DNA of 40,719 bases from Bacillota bacterium (GTDB lineage Bacteria; Bacillota; Halanaerobiia; B1SED10-174), in assembly GCA_007122335.1 (NCBI GenBank), contig SKTZ01000063.1, forward strand, positions 1 to 40,719, read 5' to 3'. Positions 2,398 to 10,635 of the stretch are shown in pieces. The first letter of the stretch is position 1; each line of letters begins with the position of its first letter. A program made the translations under genes and the position numbers. A model generated the notes under the pieces. It did not search any database and was not told the DNA's origin. It was given only the letters and a program-made list of their open reading frames with translations.

Positions 2398-2686
2398 CTG
2401 GAATAATTAAGGAAAGGTCTGGCATAACAGTTCGGGATTTTCTTTTATGAGTCTTTGACCCGGGAGTTTATAAAAACTTTATCTTTCCTTTAAAGAACTT
2501 TTAAACAAATATGCTATTTTGGAGTTAGCAAGCAGGGCAAAAAATCAAGTTTTTAATAAACAAATTATCCTCTGTTAGTGGGGTTCACATTTGCTGAATT
2601 ATTTCCTGATGAATATTTTGAACAAAGATTTTCCTGCTTAAGCGTCGATTACTCATAAAATCTGCAACTTGAAGGGGGAACAACAA
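2398..2686. other. AT-rich intergenic stretch upstream of a secreted-protein gene
   Basis: No open frame with coding character. A TTGACC (2455-2460) with a poor -10 match 17 bases later is the only promoter-like signal, and it is weak. The ribosome site of the next gene, AAGGGGGAA, lies at 2672-2680. I looked for a c-di-GMP riboswitch here because of the upstream enzyme and did not find one. Confidence 0.5.
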
Positions 2687-3769
2687 ATGAAGAAGAAAAA
2701 AAGTTGGATTCGATTTTCTTTCTTGTGTGTTCTTGTTTTTTGTTTTATTTTTTTCCCCGTTTTGGCCAATGAAGTTCACGCTGGTGAGGGCTGGAAATCG
2801 TTATTTTTTGAGCCTGGCCAGAGCTTTACCTATTTAATTAGGGCAGAAAAGGACGGAGTTGAAACTCTGGGTGAGGTTAGTATTTTCGTTTATCCTGCTG
2901 GCGGAGAAATGATTGAAATTAATCTACAACTTGAATTTGACGGGGAATATTTTGAGGTTTATGCAGAAGGTGATAGGAACGACATTGAGGATTTATACGT
3001 TAATCTTTTGGTTAGCATGATGTGGGAAATACCTGAACTGGCTATGCAGTTAATGATGCATACCTTTCTACAGCCCTGGGTTGAAACACCCCTCCAGGAT
3101 GCAGAACTATCCCTGGATTGGGTCTGGGAAGAAGATGAAGATTGGGATGACTGGGAGGATGAAGACCTGTTTATAGGAGTGGTAGGAGAAGCAACATATG
3201 GGGGTTTTGATGGCTTTGTAATCAGGGCCGAAGAAGATGTGGATTTGGATTTTGTTTTTGAAGTCTGTATTAATCCTACTCTACCTCTTCCCATTATGGG
3301 AAGGGCAAGCAATTTTGTCCCGGGAACTGAATTTGAAGGGGGTTCCCTTTATGCCGAACTAATTAATTATGAAATTGTTTCCTTTGCCGAAGTAGACCTG
3401 GAAGAAAAAAGAAAAACTGAAGCAACGATTCTGGATGAACTGGTAGAGTATTGGGCTGAACACGGCCTGGAAATAGGGGAAAGAACGATGAAAGCTTATG
3501 GGATGCTTGGTGCTGTGGCCGGATTTGGCCTGATGGTTGAAGGTGATGAAATTGAAGTTTATCTTTTTGATCCGGAAACAGCTGATGAGAAAACTCTTGA
3601 ATATCTCTATGAGGCAAGGGAGACGGGTAAGTTTGTCTTCGAAGAGATGGGTGGGATGGAAATCCCGGTGGTTATTAATGGATATATAATGCTAACTGGT
3701 CTTGAATATGGAACTTTTTATAAGCACCCGGAAAAAGATTTAATTGTGGAGATTTTTAATAGTTTTTAA
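2687..3769 (+). CDS. secreted acidic protein of unknown function
   Basis: A 360-residue protein with a Sec signal peptide: basic MKKKK start, hydrophobic core about 10-27, likely cleavage after A32 in the NEVHA-GEGW region. There is no lipobox. The N-terminal half (about 35-240) is predicted mostly beta and carries a very acidic, tryptophan-containing patch at 148-160. The C-terminal part (about 243-360) begins with an amphipathic helix and looks like a separate small alpha/beta domain. I chose ATG 2687 over the in-frame TTG at 2669 because the ribosome site AAGGGGGAA falls between them. Flanked by terminators on both sides, so probably transcribed alone. Family not recognised; exported location is well supported. 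Confidence 0.75.
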   Translation: MKKKKSWIRFSFLCVLVFCFIFFPVLANEVHAGEGWKSLFFEPGQSFTYLIRAEKDGVETLGEVSIFVYPAGGEMIEINLQLEFDGEYFEVYAEGDRNDIEDLYVNLLVSMMWEIPELAMQLMMHTFLQPWVETPLQDAELSLDWVWEEDEDWDDWEDEDLFIGVVGEATYGGFDGFVIRAEEDVDLDFVFEVCINPTLPLPIMGRASNFVPGTEFEGGSLYAELINYEIVSFAEVDLEEKRKTEATILDELVEYWAEHGLEIGERTMKAYGMLGAVAGFGLMVEGDEIEVYLFDPETADEKTLEYLYEARETGKFVFEEMGGMEIPVVINGYIMLTGLEYGTFYKHPEKDLIVEIFNSF

Positions 3770-3800
3770 ATAATTTTTTCAGGGTAAGACTTTTTTAAAA

Positions 3801-3838
3801 CGCTCCAGGTCTTAAAAACCTGGGGCGGTTTGGTTTTT
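3801..3838 (+). terminator. intrinsic terminator after the acidic secreted protein
   Basis: A 10-bp stem (3801-3810 with 3818-3827, one G-T wobble), a seven-base loop, then a T-rich tail ending in TTTTT at 3834-3838. Confidence 0.75.
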
Positions 3839-3856
3839 AAGCTCCTTAAAGAGGGG

Positions 3857-3893
3857 AATTTTCACCCTTCCTTTGTTAGGGAAGGTAAAATTT
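3857..3893. other. imperfect inverted repeat between genes
   Basis: About 15 paired bases with two single-base bulges (AATTTTCACCCTTCC against GGGAAGGTAAAATT). It could be a second, weak terminator after 3838 or an operator before mscS. The sequence does not decide. Confidence 0.4.
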
Positions 3894-4010
3894 GCAAAAA
3901 ATAGAAGTGTTTAAAAACCCCCGGTCTAATTTTTCAGTTCGGGAATTTTAAATTGAACTCCCGTGATTTATTACTAAAAATTTAAATTAAAGATAAGGAG
4001 GAAAATAAAA

Positions 4011-4805
4011 ATGGATAATTTTTTAGAGATTGCTTTACCTGTAATCAGGAGCATAGCTCTGGCGATTGTTGCCCTGTTTTTTGGTTTAATGATTATCAGG
4101 TGGATTGGGGAACGAGCAAGAAAATATTTAGAGAAAACCGGTATGGATAAAACCCTAAAACCCTTTATTATTTCCCTGGTAACAACTGTCCTAAAAATTC
4201 TCCTGGCAATTTCCATTATCCGGGTTCTGGGGATCGATACTACCTCGTTTGTAGCAGTAATCGCAGCGGCTGGTTTTGCTATTGGCCTGGCTTTTCAGGG
4301 TTCCCTTGCAAACTTTGCTGGGGGGGTTTTACTGCTAACCCTTCGTCCCTTTAAAGTTGGGGATTTTGTTGAAGCAGTAGGTTTTATGGGAACAGTGCAG
4401 TCCATCCAGATTCTCCACACTGAACTAACAACTCCCGACAATAAATTGATATACATACCCAACGGGAATCTCTCCAATTCCAGCATAGTTAATTTTTCAG
4501 CAAAAGACAGAAGAAGGGCTGATTTCAAATTCGGAGTGGGGTATGAAGAAGATACTGACAGGGTAATTTCAGTGTTAAAGGATGTTGTAGAATCCCATGA
4601 AAAAATCCTGAAAGAACCTCCACCATTTGTCCGTATGTCCGAACATGCTGATAGTGCAGTTATTTTCACGGTTAGGGTCTGGGCAATGGCCGAGGATTTC
4701 TGGAATGTTTACTTTGACGTGATTGAGATGGTCAAAAAAAGGTTCGACCAGGAGAAGATTTCTATTCCCTATCCCCAAATGGATGTTCACATGGACAAGA
4801 ATTAA
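4011..4805 (+). CDS. mscS: MscS-family small-conductance mechanosensitive channel
   Basis: Tension-gated inner-membrane channel that releases solutes on osmotic down-shock. At 264 residues it is near the length of E. coli MscS. Three hydrophobic segments are visible (about 8-28, 52-75, 78-110). The third is the glycine/alanine-rich pore helix, containing the stretch AAAGFAIGLAFQGSLANFAG. It is followed by the hallmark beta domain (RPFKVGDFVE, then IPNGNLSN-S-I-N) and an alpha/beta C-terminal vestibule region. The ribosome site AAGGAGG sits 11 bases before ATG 4011. Terminators on both sides indicate a single-gene transcript. Assignment is firm; ion preference is not determined. Confidence 0.95.
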   Translation: MDNFLEIALPVIRSIALAIVALFFGLMIIRWIGERARKYLEKTGMDKTLKPFIISLVTTVLKILLAISIIRVLGIDTTSFVAVIAAAGFAIGLAFQGSLANFAGGVLLLTLRPFKVGDFVEAVGFMGTVQSIQILHTELTTPDNKLIYIPNGNLSNSSIVNFSAKDRRRADFKFGVGYEEDTDRVISVLKDVVESHEKILKEPPPFVRMSEHADSAVIFTVRVWAMAEDFWNVYFDVIEMVKKRFDQEKISIPYPQMDVHMDKN

Positions 4806-4853
4806 AAAGACAAAACCGGAAAAAAGAGAGAGAAATTAAAAAGCTAAAAAATG

Positions 4854-4877
4854 AAAGGGCCCTGTCGGGCCTTTTTT
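4854..4877 (+). terminator. intrinsic terminator after mscS
   Basis: Stem AAAGGGCCC with GGGCCTTTT (one G-T pair), loop TGTC, followed by a T tract. Confidence 0.85.
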
Positions 4878-5186
4878 AATTTGTTTTTTCCAGGTAGAAA
4901 TAAATAAACTTCCTGGAAATACCGTTAAATGAACTGCTCTGTTTTACATTCCAAACGCCCATATACCAGGTTGTTCAGAAGTAAAATAAACAGGTTTTTT
5001 CCTGTTTTGGTGGGGAATGAAGGTGTTTTACACTTTAAAGCGAAACAGGTTAATATAACTCTTAATTAGAATGAATTTATTAATTTTAAGGATTTCCCAC
5101 TGGAAATCCTGTAAATTTTTGTTTTCTGGATTGATAGAAAGATACCAGAAAAAATCCGGCCGTTGCTTATCTTTATACAGAATGGG
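4878..5186. other. intergenic stretch with two short hairpins
   Basis: No coding frame. Two perfect small hairpins are present: AAACAGG-TTTTTT-CCTGTTT at 4988-5007 and GGATTTCC-CACT-GGAAATCC at 5090-5109, the latter followed by an AT-rich tail. Either may act in the leader of the two-component operon; no consensus promoter was found. Confidence 0.45.
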
Positions 5187-5912
5187 GTGATTATCCTGGC
5201 AGGAGAGAAAATTTTGATAATTGATGATGAAAGAGAAATCTGTGAAATGGTCTCTTTGTGTCTGGAGAATGAACGTTACCAGCCCTTAATTGCTGAAGAC
5301 GGCCGGAAGGGTTTACAGAGTGCCAGAGAAGAAAAACCTGACCTGATTATTCTTGATATTTACCTTCCGGATATGGATGGGATTGAGGTTTGCCAGGAAC
5401 TCCGTAATTTCACCAGTGTCCCCATTTTGTTTTTGAGTTGCAAAAGCGAGGATGTTGATAAGATTGTGGGATTACGGGTTGGGGGAGATGACTATATCAC
5501 CAAACCCTTCAGTCCCGGTGAACTGACTGCCCGGGTAAAAGCCCATCTCAGGAGGAACCGACTTCTTGATGCCATAAGTAAACACAACCAGATTTTAAGA
5601 TTTCCCGGGCTGGAAATTGATATAGGAAGCCATGAAATCCGAAAAAATGAGGCCAAGGTTCCCCTTTCGGCAATCGAATTTCAGATTTTAACCATCTTGG
5701 CCAAAAATCCCAATCGGGTTTTTAACCCCGACCACCTTTACGAACTTGTCTGGGGTAATGAAGAACTGTGTGACCCCCGAACAGTTGCAGTTCATATCAG
5801 TAATTTACGAAAAAAAATTGAATCCGATCCAACCAGACCTACATATATTCTGACTGTAAGGGGAGTGGGCTATAAGTTTAATGTTCCTTCCCCTGAACCG
5901 GAAAAACTTTAG
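5187..5912 (+). CDS. OmpR/PhoB-family response regulator
   Basis: DNA-binding output protein of the two-component pair with the kinase that follows 30 bases later. The receiver domain opens with KILIIDDE; the phosphoacceptor is the Asp of LIILDIYLPD and the conserved Lys lies in ITKPF. The C-terminal winged helix (about the last 100 residues) has the family ending GVGYKF. The start is uncertain: GTG 5187 (241 residues) keeps the first beta strand, and TTG 5163 would add eight residues. Neither has a convincing ribosome site. Target genes are not evident, though the neighbouring secreted-protein genes are candidates by position only. Confidence 0.93.
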   Translation: MIILAGEKILIIDDEREICEMVSLCLENERYQPLIAEDGRKGLQSAREEKPDLIILDIYLPDMDGIEVCQELRNFTSVPILFLSCKSEDVDKIVGLRVGGDDYITKPFSPGELTARVKAHLRRNRLLDAISKHNQILRFPGLEIDIGSHEIRKNEAKVPLSAIEFQILTILAKNPNRVFNPDHLYELVWGNEELCDPRTVAVHISNLRKKIESDPTRPTYILTVRGVGYKFNVPSPEPEKL

Positions 5913-5919
5913 AAAAAAA

Positions 5920-5936
5920 CCCTTCTTCGGGGAGGG
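5920..5936 (+). promoter_or_regulatory. UUCG hairpin covering the kinase ribosome site
   Basis: CCCTTC (5920-5925) pairs with GGGAGGG (5930-5936, one bulged base) around a C(UUCG)G tetraloop at 5925-5930. The paired 3' arm contains the GGAGGG ribosome site for the TTG start at 5943. The pairing is seen directly; a role in limiting kinase translation is inferred. Confidence 0.45.
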
Positions 5937-5942
5937 ATCGGA

Positions 5943-8843
5943 TTGGATTTTTTAACTTATTATTTTTTGATTTTTTATATGCTGACTGTTTCCGGCGCGG
6001 CCATATGCGGAGCCGGACTTTTTGTCATGGGAAAATATGTTCCAGTAAAAAAACTTTTCTTTCTTGGCCTGATTTCGGCAATAATAATGTCCCCGATCTG
6101 GCTTTTGAACTTATCCAATGGGTCCAAGGTTTATCTAACAATTTTACTTTTGGTAGTTCTAATTAACCTAACACAGAAATTCGGCTGGTTTATTTCCACT
6201 GGTGCAGCTCTTTCGGGGTTGGCCATTATGACTCTGATCGAATTTTCATTTACTCTCTTTCTGCAATTTAACCCTTCCTGGTTTATTCGAGTCCTTCATG
6301 CTTCACCTCCGAATCTATTGGGGCTGATCCTTGCGATAATTGGGCAAAGCTGGCTTAAAAGTTCACCAGCGGGGAACTGGTTTGCGGATGTTGAAAAAAA
6401 TGAAGATTCTGACTGGGAAAGGGCCTTAAAAATTGTTCCTCTGGGACAACTTTTTAATGCCTTTATTTTAATTGCAGTAACTGTTTCCTTGATTTCCTGG
6501 CCGGTTTTTAACCGTTTTTTACCTTTACTCTTAACAGGCTGTATTTTATTCAGCCTGTATCTGACCAAAAAATATTTTCTTCCCCGGAACTTTTCTCTCA
6601 CACCTATGGATGTTGCTGACCTGATGATTATGGTCCCAGTAATTTTCTATATTATCAGTGTTACAGGAGGTGTGGAGAGTCCCTGGAAAGTTTTCTTTTT
6701 GCTTTTAGTAATAACAAACGCCCTGAAGAAAAAAATTATATTTGGGCTTTTAAGTATCTTTTTTTCTGGTGGGGTTCTATTTTTCTTTGGGGTCAGGGAA
6801 TTAATTGAGGGGGAGAATTGGTTCTGGCAGCTTGATTTTCTCTGTTTTACCGCCCTGACTTTAATTTTTACATTAATTCGCTTTTTTATTTTTTCAGAAC
6901 AAAATCTCAAAGAAGAGGTCAAAAATACAAGGAGGAATATACTTTCCAGTATTTCGCATGACCTGAGAACGCCAATGACCCTGGTGCAGGGTTATACCGA
7001 GGTTATATTACAGGAAAAAATTTTAGATCCGGGTAAAAAACAGTACTACCTGGAGCTAGTCCTTAAAAAAGCCCGGGACTTAAAACGATTTGCCCAAAAC
7101 CTCCTGGAACTTGCTCGGCTTGAAACGGGGAAAATTCCCCTGCAGAAAGAGCAAATTTCATCCCAGGAGTACGTGGAAGGAATTGAAAAAAGTTATAGAT
7201 TAATTGCAGAAAAAAAAGAAGTGGGATTAAAAACCGATGTTATTGAGGATTTAAATTTTGAAGTTGACCCTTATTTGCTGGATCGGGTTCTGGCCAACCT
7301 TATTTTAAATGCTTTAACTCACACATCTCCTGGTGGGTCCATTACCGTTTCCTGCTCCAGAATAAAAGATGGCAATGAAGTGTTTTTTTCGGTGCGGGAT
7401 ACCGGGAAAGGGATAAGGGAAGACGAAGTGTCCAGAATTTTTTTGAGATTCTATCGGGGTTCCGAACAGGAAAGAAGCAAAGGAAAAGGATTGGGGTTAC
7501 CCATAGCCCGGGAGATTGTTGAATTACACGGAGGAAGGATCTGGGTAGAAAGCAAAAAAGGTGAGGGAACTACTTGTTTTTTTACAATTCCTATCAAGGC
7601 CAGGAGGGAAAAGACAGCAGAATTTTTTAGAAGGAGAGGAAAGTCTCTTGTAAAACCAATTCCCCTGGCCCAGTTTTTTTCTTTTATTTTTGTGATTTTT
7701 GCTTTTTTTGCTTCGGGTTTAGATTTTCATCCTAAAAATTTCAGCCAGATATTATTTTCTTTCTCAATCGGAACAATTATTCTAAGTGGAGTTGCTCCTT
7801 TAATTTTAAAAAGAGAAGATACTGGTGGGAGATTTTCCAACATTGGTTTTATTTATGATCTGCCTGTTTTGGTAATAATGATCTTCCTGATCCTCGCCAG
7901 CACAGGTTATTCTGCAAGTCCCTGGAAACTGCTTTTCATTCCTGTAATAATTACCAACAGTTTGAAAGGGAGTAAAGTTATCGGGCCTTTAAGTGTAGCC
8001 CTGGCTTCGGTTAGCCTCGTTATCATGGGGGTCATGGATTCTTTAAGGGGAATGGAATGGTTTATCGAGCAGGACCTTGCCTATATTACAATTTTTGCCC
8101 TGGTTTTTGGGGTAACCAATCACTTGAAAAAAGCTCAGGAAGCCCAAAAAACCGAACTCGCCCATTCGGGCGGGCATTTCTTGGCTTATCTTACTCACTA
8201 TCTCCAGGTTCCCCTTGAAGAAATTATCAATACCATGGAGAGCTTAATGGAGAAAAATAAAGAGGGCAAAAAGGATTTTCGCCCTGCTCTCCTTCATGTT
8301 CAACAACAGGTCTTCCAGTTAAACAGGTTTATCGAGAACGTTTTTGAAATAATCCAGTTTGAAGCAGGTAGGGCTGTATTGCAAATTGCTCCGATCCCCC
8401 TGGATGAACTTATAGAAAAGAGCCTTAAAAAGGCCAGGGCAGATAACAAGTTAAATCCTGTTGAATTCTCTTACTTCTGTGATGGTAGAGCCTGCAATTC
8501 TGCTTCTTTCCCTTTGCTTTTTGTGGACAGGGAAAGGTTCAGCAGGGCGCTGGCCAGTTTTCTATTTATTCCTCTTCTGGTTGGGGCGTATAATTTAAAA
8601 AACAAAATTTATTGTCGGGTTTTAAATAAAGGAGATGAAATTATTTTTGAAATAAGAGGGATTAAAAGGGTTAACGGAAATAATTCAAAGGAAAAATTAG
8701 AAATGAAAAACCTCTTCGACATGGAGATTATGATAATCGAAAAGATAATCAAGCTGCACAAGGGGGTTATTTTAATTGAAGAACGGCCGGGAAATGATGA
8801 AATAGTTTTAAGTTTAACGGTTCCAGTGAATGTACCTTTGTAA
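5943..8843 (+). CDS. tandem-duplicated membrane sensor histidine kinase with degenerate second kinase half
   Basis: A 966-residue membrane kinase, partner of the preceding regulator. The N-terminal region (1-317) has many transmembrane segments. The first kinase half is complete: H-box with H339 and P344, N-box N456, DTGKG 486-490, GKGLGLP 514-520. A second set of membrane segments follows (about 575-725). Then comes a second H-box-like segment (H752, P757, but lacking the usual E/R/T residues) and a C-terminal region with no recognisable N-box, DxGxG or GLG motif. The two halves are related: the motif SPWK at 246 and at 659, followed by ITN-x-LK, lies exactly 93 residues before each H-box histidine. 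The second half is therefore probably a pseudokinase or dimer/regulatory module. The TTG start has GGGAGGG seven bases upstream. Signal unknown. Confidence 0.92.
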   Translation: MDFLTYYFLIFYMLTVSGAAICGAGLFVMGKYVPVKKLFFLGLISAIIMSPIWLLNLSNGSKVYLTILLLVVLINLTQKFGWFISTGAALSGLAIMTLIEFSFTLFLQFNPSWFIRVLHASPPNLLGLILAIIGQSWLKSSPAGNWFADVEKNEDSDWERALKIVPLGQLFNAFILIAVTVSLISWPVFNRFLPLLLTGCILFSLYLTKKYFLPRNFSLTPMDVADLMIMVPVIFYIISVTGGVESPWKVFFLLLVITNALKKKIIFGLLSIFFSGGVLFFFGVRELIEGENWFWQLDFLCFTALTLIFTLIRFFIFSEQNLKEEVKNTRRNILSSISHDLRTPMTLVQGYTEVILQEKILDPGKKQYYLELVLKKARDLKRFAQNLLELARLETGKIPLQKEQISSQEYVEGIEKSYRLIAEKKEVGLKTDVIEDLNFEVDPYLLDRVLANLILNALTHTSPGGSITVSCSRIKDGNEVFFSVRDTGKGIREDEVSRIFLRFYRGSEQERSKGKGLGLPIAREIVELHGGRIWVESKKGEGTTCFFTIPIKARREKTAEFFRRRGKSLVKPIPLAQFFSFIFVIFAFFASGLDFHPKNFSQILFSFSIGTIILSGVAPLILKREDTGGRFSNIGFIYDLPVLVIMIFLILASTGYSASPWKLLFIPVIITNSLKGSKVIGPLSVALASVSLVIMGVMDSLRGMEWFIEQDLAYITIFALVFGVTNHLKKAQEAQKTELAHSGGHFLAYLTHYLQVPLEEIINTMESLMEKNKEGKKDFRPALLHVQQQVFQLNRFIENVFEIIQFEAGRAVLQIAPIPLDELIEKSLKKARADNKLNPVEFSYFCDGRACNSASFPLLFVDRERFSRALASFLFIPLLVGAYNLKNKIYCRVLNKGDEIIFEIRGIKRVNGNNSKEKLEMKNLFDMEIMIIEKIIKLHKGVILIEERPGNDEIVLSLTVPVNVPL

Positions 8844-8860
8844 AACAAAAGGAGAGACAG

Positions 8861-9046
8861 GTGATTTTACCGCAGATTTTCTGGCCTCTGGTTTTATTGT
8901 TCCCGCCTAGTCCGATCCTTTACAAAAACTTTAGGTTAGCTTTAAAAAGCTTTAAAGATATTGTGGTATCTTTAAACTGGGGGGTTGTATTTATTTCGAA
9001 TAACCCAGTGATTTGGAAAGAAATTTTGTCACATATTGAAAATTAA
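8861..9046 (+). CDS. possible small hydrophobic protein, doubtful
   Basis: A 61-codon frame with GTG start and an AAAGGAGA ribosome site eight bases before it, 17 bases after the kinase stop. The residues are hydrophobic at the N-terminus (about 3-20), but composition and the embedded perfect hairpin at 8951-8976 suggest non-coding leader DNA. No family recognised. Listed so that it can be tested. Confidence 0.25.
   Translation: MILPQIFWPLVLLFPPSPILYKNFRLALKSFKDIVVSLNWGVVFISNNPVIWKEILSHIEN
8951..8976. repeat. perfect 10-bp inverted repeat upstream of a secreted-protein gene
   Basis: TTTAAAGATA, six-base spacer, TATCTTTAAA. No T tract follows, so an operator or RNA structure is more likely than a terminator. 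It sits 94 bases before the TTG start at 9070. Confidence 0.5.
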
Positions 9047-9069
9047 AGGAAAAGAAAGGGGATGGGCTT

Positions 9070-10635
9070 TTGTCCAGACCAAATATTATTGGAGAAGCTC
9101 TAAGTAAAAAAAATAAAAAGTATTTTGTAGTTTTCTTTGTAATAATGTTTATGCTTTTTCCAAGTGGAAAAATTGAGGCCCAGGGAAGATGGTTGGATCT
9201 AAACTTTTTGAGTATTCCTGAACTGGGTTTAAGTGAAGAGGAGATTGAAAACTATAAAACCAACATGTTGGAGGTGCTGGATATTTTCCGCAAGGCTCCT
9301 CCTCTCGATCCTCCCCGGGGTTTTGAAATAGTGCCCCGGATCAATATTAGCTCACGACTTATACTACCTGATGGAGTTAGAGGCCCAGTTCAATCCAGGA
9401 TTACCATGGCGATGTGGTTTCCAGAATATCATCCCAGAGATCCTGCTACAGCACGGGTTTCGATCTGGTTTAATAACCCGGAAAGTTTCCTGGGAGATCC
9501 CATTCTTGCTGATGAAGGAGGAAAAATATACATTCTTCCTCCGGTTTTTGAGCAAAGTCCAGGGGGGAATATATTTTCCCGGGGTGCCCATCCTCCCGGA
9601 TATGAAGAAGCATACCCTTCATACAGCATGTTTCCCCTCTGGGATGCCAAGATTGAACCATTTTTGCGTTCTGTGGTCCGCCCGTCTTTTGAACTGGGAA
9701 GGCATGAGGGAGCGGTTTCGGTTTTAACTCGGGATGGCAACCCCTTTTGGGTTCCTGTCAGTCAGGAAAGGTGGATCAGAGCTCTGCAGGATTACGCCAG
9801 GCGGGAAATTGAAACCGTTCAGCTGGGGTTCGAAGCAGCAGAAGAAGTTGAATTGACCCAGCAGCAAATTACCCAAATAAGAAACTATATGACACAACTC
9901 CAGAAGGCTTTTTCCGAAGAAGAAATTATTAAAAGCCACCAGAAAATGTTCGATGATTATTTAGATCTATATGAATACTATAAAACTGTGGATGCTGATG
10001 CTGCCCAGAATTTTTATGAAGCAACCATTGAAAATGCCGATCAAATATTGGAAGATCAGCTTGAAATGGCTTTAGAACTGCGGCGAGAGTTTGCAGAAAT
10101 GGAGGAAAAAATTCTGCAGGCTCTCCTTGCTCGTCAGGACTTTATAGAGGAAATGGATGGATTAATTAAGACCGAGGATTGGGATGGATTGGAGGACTTG
10201 GGAAGAGAATTAGATCTGGAAAGAGTTATCTTCCTTGCTTATGCGGGACGGGCAATTAATGGTCTTGAATTCGAACTTGCCAGCCTTTCCCCCGGAGAAA
10301 GAGCCGCCCAGGCTTATGGTTTTGAACTCCCTGAATGGCATCCTTTTGGTCCTCACAGGCAGGTTGTTGCAATGCCCTTTGAAGCAGTTCGTTTTTCTGG
10401 CCTGGTTTCACCGGATAGTGAAGGAGCCAGGGCCCTTGTGGCCGTTGATCCCAAATATTTCAACAGCAACCTTCCTCCAACGGAAATACAGTTAATTGTT
10501 GTTGATTGGTGGGAGGAAACCCATCCCCGGTATTATTCACCTACCGGGAGTGCTTATAATGAAATCCGGGTTCAATTGCTCAGCAGACTCTGGAACAGTC
10601 TGGACTGGAGCTCTTTAAGAAGCTTTGTTAGGTAA
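9070..10635 (+). CDS. secreted protein of unknown function with helical C-terminal region
   Basis: A 521-residue exported protein. The charged N-terminal tail (to about 17) precedes a hydrophobic segment (18-31), with likely cleavage after A37 (KIEA-QG). Residues 80-220 are proline/aromatic rich and probably a beta domain. Residues about 235-390 are strongly helical and acidic, with coiled-coil character. The last 130 residues return to a mixed fold. The TTG start is chosen because AAAGGGGA lies about eight bases upstream and the ATG at 9062 is in a frame that closes after 13 codons. No family recognised, and no catalytic motif seen. It lies just downstream of the two-component genes, which might control it, but that is inference only. 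Confidence 0.72.
   Translation: MSRPNIIGEALSKKNKKYFVVFFVIMFMLFPSGKIEAQGRWLDLNFLSIPELGLSEEEIENYKTNMLEVLDIFRKAPPLDPPRGFEIVPRINISSRLILPDGVRGPVQSRITMAMWFPEYHPRDPATARVSIWFNNPESFLGDPILADEGGKIYILPPVFEQSPGGNIFSRGAHPPGYEEAYPSYSMFPLWDAKIEPFLRSVVRPSFELGRHEGAVSVLTRDGNPFWVPVSQERWIRALQDYARREIETVQLGFEAAEEVELTQQQITQIRNYMTQLQKAFSEEEIIKSHQKMFDDYLDLYEYYKTVDADAAQNFYEATIENADQILEDQLEMALELRREFAEMEEKILQALLARQDFIEEMDGLIKTEDWDGLEDLGRELDLERVIFLAYAGRAINGLEFELASLSPGERAAQAYGFELPEWHPFGPHRQVVAMPFEAVRFSGLVSPDSEGARALVAVDPKYFNSNLPPTEIQLIVVDWWEETHPRYYSPTGSAYNEIRVQLLSRLWNSLDWSSLRSFVR

Follow-up and report, generated by a model that had tools for sequence, protein, structure and literature searches.

The 40,719-nucleotide stretch of DNA analysed here (the window) encodes a 966-aa histidine kinase built by internal duplication, and all known copies of this double architecture go back to a single event. 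In every one of them the second half has lost its catalytic motifs, and it is kept under purifying selection. The whole is best explained, and we hold this with somewhat better than even confidence, as a tandem-duplicated sensor kinase whose unit 1 is active and whose unit 2 has been maintained as a pseudokinase that would act as an attached regulatory partner.

Domain layout and sensor family

The open reading frame (5943-8843, forward strand) starts with TTG and comprises two units, residues 166-552 and 574-966, with about 21 residues between them, each with a DHp hairpin and a CA domain behind a six-helix sensor (Table 1). Pfam gave no match to HAMP or PAS between sensor and DHp, and none to Response_reg anywhere in the 966-aa protein, which does not therefore belong to the hybrid kinases of the TRTR type.

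Table 1. Features of the double kinase and of the regulator gene beside it (positions in the window; aa, residues of the kinase).
Feature	Position	Strand	Evidence
OmpR/PhoB-type response regulator	5163..5912	+	Pfam Response_reg 4.3e-28, Trans_reg_C 2.1e-25
5-helix N-terminal membrane domain, aa 1-160, single copy	5943..6422	+	hydropathy, profile-profile
Sensor unit 1, PilS-like six-helix membrane domain, aa 166-322	6438..6908	+	
SPWK of sensor unit 1, aa 246-249	6678-6689	+	
DHp1 (HisKA), aa 325-397	6915..7133	+	Pfam HisKA 5.3e-17
H339 in active H-box SHDLRTP of DHp1	6957-6959	+	
CA1 (HATPase_c), aa 398-552; N, G1, F, G2 boxes intact	7134..7598	+	Pfam 6e-31, motif table
21-residue linker from CA1 back to the membrane, aa 553-573	7599..7661	+	
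Sensor unit 2, duplicated six-helix membrane domain, aa 574-735	7662..8147	+	
SPWK of sensor unit 2, aa 659-662	7917-7928	+	
DHp2 (degenerate HisKA), aa 738-812	8154..8378	+	HisKA below cut-off
H752 of DHp2, non-invariant	8196-8198	+	H752G in L012
CA2 (pseudo-ATPase domain), aa 813-966	8379..8840	+	fold predicted; ATP motifs and lid lost

The sensors resemble the PilS-like sensor family (PF25323, 6TM_PilS) in the TGGxxSPxK motif and the six helices, and differ from it in that two copies stand in one chain. Neither window sensor has a Pfam match to PF25323 and they are not counted as members; a single-kinase relative with a similar motif matched at 0.0016, which is also below the cut-off. In single-unit relatives of the sensor the output is one kinase, a GGDEF domain, or GGDEF plus HD-GYP. 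For example, L103:5309-5986 (reverse strand) has the same membrane sensor (SGGSTSYLKFLYIPLIISNALKP) joined to a GGDEF domain in a frame cut by the contig end.

The N-terminal 5-helix domain is related to standalone membrane proteins of about 165 aa in L088 and L093 (profile-profile E=3e-6), one of which is encoded beside an AgrB gene. In L093 (genome G208) the standalone 5-helix protein, the AgrB homolog and a sensor-GGDEF-HD-GYP protein are encoded together, hinting at a link between the window kinase and peptide signalling.

Evidence for internal duplication

Both halves carry the same landmarks, namely SPWK at residues 246 and 659, ITN at 257 and 670 and the H-box His at 339 and 752, so that the distance from SPWK to the H-box is 93 residues in each, exactly as the first-pass annotation had reported. 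The halves align along about 390 residues. Smith-Waterman alignment of residues 166-565 with 566-966 scored 267, against a maximum of 82 among 500 locally shuffled controls, and BLASTP of half against half gave 26% identity over 344 aa (E=2e-25). A profile built from three second halves aligned with the first half over model positions 7-400 (E=6.7e-34); in the same search, which covered 59 genomes of the class, matches to unrelated kinases were confined to the surroundings of the DHp and reached 1.5e-8 at best. The halves thus align far better than unrelated kinases do, the profile specificity rejects a motif shared by chance or through general sensor similarity, and the internal duplication proposed earlier is upheld as one event found in four orthologs. 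At the DNA level the likeness is confined to one 42-nt stretch (6678-6719 and 7917-7958, 71%, offset 1239 = 413 codons), and the duplication is therefore old. An assembly artefact was rejected as well, since the double gene occurs in four genomes and its halves diverge strongly in DNA.

The 93-residue spacing recurs in all eight half-units of the four double proteins, and in single-copy kinase relatives 96, 104 or 99 residues separate the S..K motif from the H-box. The equal spacing reflects common ancestry together with a fixed register from TM6 to the DHp helix. In the AF2 model of the full chain, whose membrane part is of low confidence, TM6 and DHp alpha1 form one unbroken helix in each unit (294-357 and 706-773), and SPWK lies in the fourth sensor helix; the spacing is rigid because continuous helices set the register from SPWK down to the His.

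Orthologs, phylogeny and gene neighbourhood

A search for homologues with the same double architecture yielded four proteins including that of the window. Three belong to one genus, the two congeners being G004 (L011/L082, 79%) and G002 (L012/L083, 54%); a GTDB scan identified these records as the Halobacteroidaceae MAGs T1Sed10_148 and B1Sed10_204 and returned the same two congeners and no more. From the isolate names, both are taken to be from a hypersaline soda-lake sediment set (compare PMC6146748). Across the phylum, 399 genomes added a single further double protein, in G142 of another family (L102:6588-9599, 1003 aa, 37%). The gene of a response regulator with 72% identity to that of the window lies immediately before it, and the regulator in G004 is 96% identical. 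Altogether, the regulator gene adjoins the double kinase in all three contigs that reach upstream (window, L082 and L102), the L012 contig starting at the kinase.

A tree of sensor and DHp, with moderately supported branches and no fixed root, separates the four first halves from the four second halves (support 89/86, 100% of 200 bootstrap trees), and it follows that one duplication preceded the split of the lineages. A frame in G005 (L081:8778-9758) encodes the N-terminal 5-helix domain and the sensor, and could be a single-unit ancestor or have a different output. It is the only related frame in that genome. Since it is cut by the contig end, the suspected continuing contig piece encodes a different kinase and there is no upstream regulator, we did not accept it as evidence of an ancestor, and it says nothing on polarity.

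In the congener G003, homologs of window 2669-3769, of the MscS gene (4011-4805) and of 9070-10635 lie on one contig (L149), and the regulator-kinase pair is absent from it, the MscS and 9070-10635 homologs being 308 bases apart (L149:593-1969, against window 3769-9070). Given this absence and the similar pair in G142, regulator and kinase look like a two-gene cassette acquired or lost as a whole.

Window 9070-10635 encodes a 521-aa protein with a signal-like N-terminus and no Pfam match. Four further genomes of the genus have homologs, G002 also has a divergent second copy (42%) and G001 a 37% relative, and none was found in G005 or G142. Window 2669-3769, L082:14812-15582 and L083:3266-3949 encode secreted proteins or lipoproteins that flank the kinase and have alike N-termini (GQxFxYxxxA), with no Pfam match for the first two. 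G004 and G002 have a copy immediately after the kinase that the window lacks.

Catalytic motifs in the two halves

The first half passes the Pfam cut-offs for HisKA (62.1 bits) and HATPase_c (107.6 bits), and its H, N, G1, F and G2 boxes are all present, in agreement with the earlier claim that it keeps every catalytic motif. H339 is retained in all four double proteins. The best NCBIfam matches of this half are PnpS, PhoR and WalK (aa 324-551), all below the curated cut-offs. With such kinases it shares a DHp and CA with all boxes and an OmpR-type partner encoded next door, which is likely its cognate regulator; the window protein differs from them in having no HAMP or PAS and in carrying a second, degenerate unit in the same chain.

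The second half of the window protein passes neither the HisKA nor the HATPase_c cut-off. No HATPase_c match was found in the second half of any of the four double proteins, and HisKA stays below cut-off in all of these halves except that of L102. The residues corresponding to N452 and N456 are S and I, GIKRV stands in place of DTGKG, and the GKGLGLP lid has been deleted. Losses of the same kinds are seen in L102, and in every second half the N-box asparagines, DxGxG and the GLG lid are gone. The motif table accordingly matches the first reading of the window, in which these motifs were lost and H752 and P757 kept.

The predicted structure is still that of a kinase. A model of the C-terminal half (mean pLDDT 63, CA mostly 60-85) has a DHp-CA fold, for which Foldseek gave 4u7o as the best match (6.9e-10) and also DivL (4q20, 1.3e-8); the best PDB match by sequence is likewise the pseudokinase DivL (E=3e-5). 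We rejected the alternative of an intact ATPase from a different family, as there is no HATPase_c match and Foldseek leads to HisKA-type kinases.

It had also been suggested that H752 accepts phosphate, and this suggestion is not supported. The residue is Gly in L012, a 54% identical ortholog (GGT vs CAC, at least two base changes), and the acid that should follow the H-box His, normally D, is lost throughout: the second halves of the window protein, L011 and L012 have Y at this position and that of L102 has G, so that the conserved His with an acidic neighbour that marks a phosphotransfer site is not found here. In addition, the regulator-contact positions of DHp2 are L/G/V, against E/N/S in DHp1, and vary between orthologs. 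A built-in phosphotransfer site at which H752 takes phosphate from CA1 or from the regulator would fit the retention of the His in three of the four orthologs, including the distant L102 (THGLQNP), and has a precedent in the Myxococcus Red system, where a second transmitter without autokinase activity accepts phosphate (PMC3018481). Nevertheless, besides the changes listed above, the chain has no receiver domain as a phosphate source, and we regard this explanation as very improbable.

Selection on the second half

We estimated omega between the window and L011 (Nei-Gojobori, 200 bootstraps). It was 0.15 for the first half and 0.27 (95% 0.20-0.38) for the second, in which DHp2 reached 0.07 (0.02-0.15), sensor 2 0.33 and CA2 0.41, the intervals of such small domains being wide. 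The second half is thus under purifying selection. Identity to L102 is 34% for sensor 2 against 40% for sensor 1, and 25% for CA2 against 45% for CA1; by this measure sensor 2 is nearly as conserved as sensor 1 and CA2 is freer. TGYSxSPWK and TNxLK of sensor 2, as well as several DHp2 positions, are invariant in the four orthologs.

A functionless, decaying remnant of the duplication would account for the higher omega of the second half and for its maximum in CA2. This explanation is hardly credible and already contradicted, as the upper bound of 0.38 lies far below 1, the frame has stayed open in four lineages across families and the sensor motifs are invariant. Shared catalytic loss combined with purifying selection makes the second half a maintained pseudokinase and not debris. 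The designation as a pseudokinase, made at first from the window protein, is upheld with four orthologs, and together with the homology to HisKA/HATPase_c kinases these are the properties of a pseudo-histidine kinase. Constraint that holds the sensor and helical bundle and leaves the CA loose is the pattern that a dimer partner or an allosteric input would be expected to leave, rather than a phosphotransfer domain or debris.

The strong constraint on DHp2 could also be explained if the second half were, as in DivL, a surface for docking or sensing the phosphorylated response regulator or another regulator, with feedback on unit 1. The sequence and structural matches to DivL point the same way, and in DivL itself the kinase domains have taken on a new role and sense DivK~P as input (PMC4211667). 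However, the regulator-contact residues of DHp2 differ from those of DHp1 and are variable, and we consider this role improbable.

Proposed mode of action

In the reading that we prefer, an ancestral unit, in which a long helix joins a PilS-like six-helix sensor directly to DHp and CA, underwent tandem duplication inside a single reading frame, ahead of the split of the lineages. The motifs and the gene order suggest that CA1 binds ATP and phosphorylates H339, and that the OmpR/PhoB-type regulator, whose gene lies immediately upstream, receives the phosphate from H339. Unit 2 would have no usual ATP binding and is probably not phosphorylated; with its membrane sensor and helical DHp retained, it would remain a permanently attached regulatory partner, and the second half probably regulates the active kinase. 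Most likely, the DHp2 helices pack against DHp1 in the same 93-residue register, and unit 2 may in this way let a further membrane signal act on the geometry that switches the active unit on and off. We infer this packing, the second signal and the direction of control. The locked dimer geometry envisaged in the first-pass annotation is consistent with the conserved register and the strongly constrained DHp2, and is our best hypothesis.

A more specific form, to be held tentatively, is that the single chain forms its own "dimer", in which the active unit pairs with its dead copy, giving one catalytic side and one purely sensory or allosteric side. If the bundle forms within the chain, phosphorylation in L012, whose second half has no His at the corresponding site, must take place in cis on H339; WalK, which is of the same broad kinase type, does work in cis (PMC11371814).

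DHp1 could equally pair with the DHp1 of a second chain. The main rival to our reading, a rather unlikely one in our view, is indeed that two ordinary homodimers stand side by side, DHp1 with DHp1 and DHp2 with DHp2, the second half being a scaffold or an extra sensor tether with no mixed four-helix bundle. Histidine kinases normally homodimerise through the DHp, and the 21-residue linker allows several arrangements. RcsC and its inactive relative RcsD are each reported to be homodimeric, a 1:1 heterodimer having been judged unlikely (PMC13317618), and mixed pairing should accordingly not be taken for granted. The identical register in all orthologs suits a mixed bundle instead, though each half may keep it for reasons of its own. 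The full-chain AlphaFold model has a poor membrane part (mean pLDDT 56), was supplied without inter-domain error and gives no direct evidence of a DHp1-DHp2 contact.

Comparison with known systems and significance

In a census of two-component proteins, only 2 of 15,704 non-hybrid kinases had two transmitters, and 51 of 53 two-transmitter proteins had receiver domains between or after them (PMC3018481). Degenerate second copies fall below Pfam cut-offs, and tandem kinases are for this reason underestimated by domain counts. TodS, the RedCDEF loci and the TRTR proteins also have two transmitter modules per protein or locus (PMC3018481, PMC4603909), whereas the window protein is without a receiver and its second transmitter is dead. 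Also comparable are the pseudo-histidine kinases that regulate active kinases, including DivL (PMC4211667), RcsD (PMC13317618) and the CA frameshift mutant of ChrS (PMC9491836), in which a kinase-like DHp-CA acts without kinase function. These are separate polypeptides, whereas in the window protein tandem duplication has joined the pseudokinase to its active paralog, and degradation has reached the CA and is not limited to the His. It does not belong to the DivL family, which has a Tyr at the H-box, PAS domains and DivK as partner; the second halves have His or Gly there, no PAS and a six-helix sensor.

No description of a pseudokinase fused by tandem duplication to an active paralog was found in the open-access literature. 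Eukaryotic JAKs, of an unrelated protein family and chemistry, are pseudokinase-kinase tandems in which the inactive copy controls the active one in the same chain. Both chains of a histidine kinase dimer are identical, and different roles of its two sides are therefore hard to test. In the window kinase the asymmetry is covalently fixed, as a dead unit follows the active one in a single chain and both have a membrane sensor. Should the pairing take place between the halves of one chain, the kinase would allow direct tests of asymmetric signalling, of phosphorylation in cis and of the integration of two inputs with no need for engineered heterodimers, and such a single-chain pseudo-dimer would be, if true, a bacterial counterpart in principle of JAK-like kinase-pseudokinase tandems.
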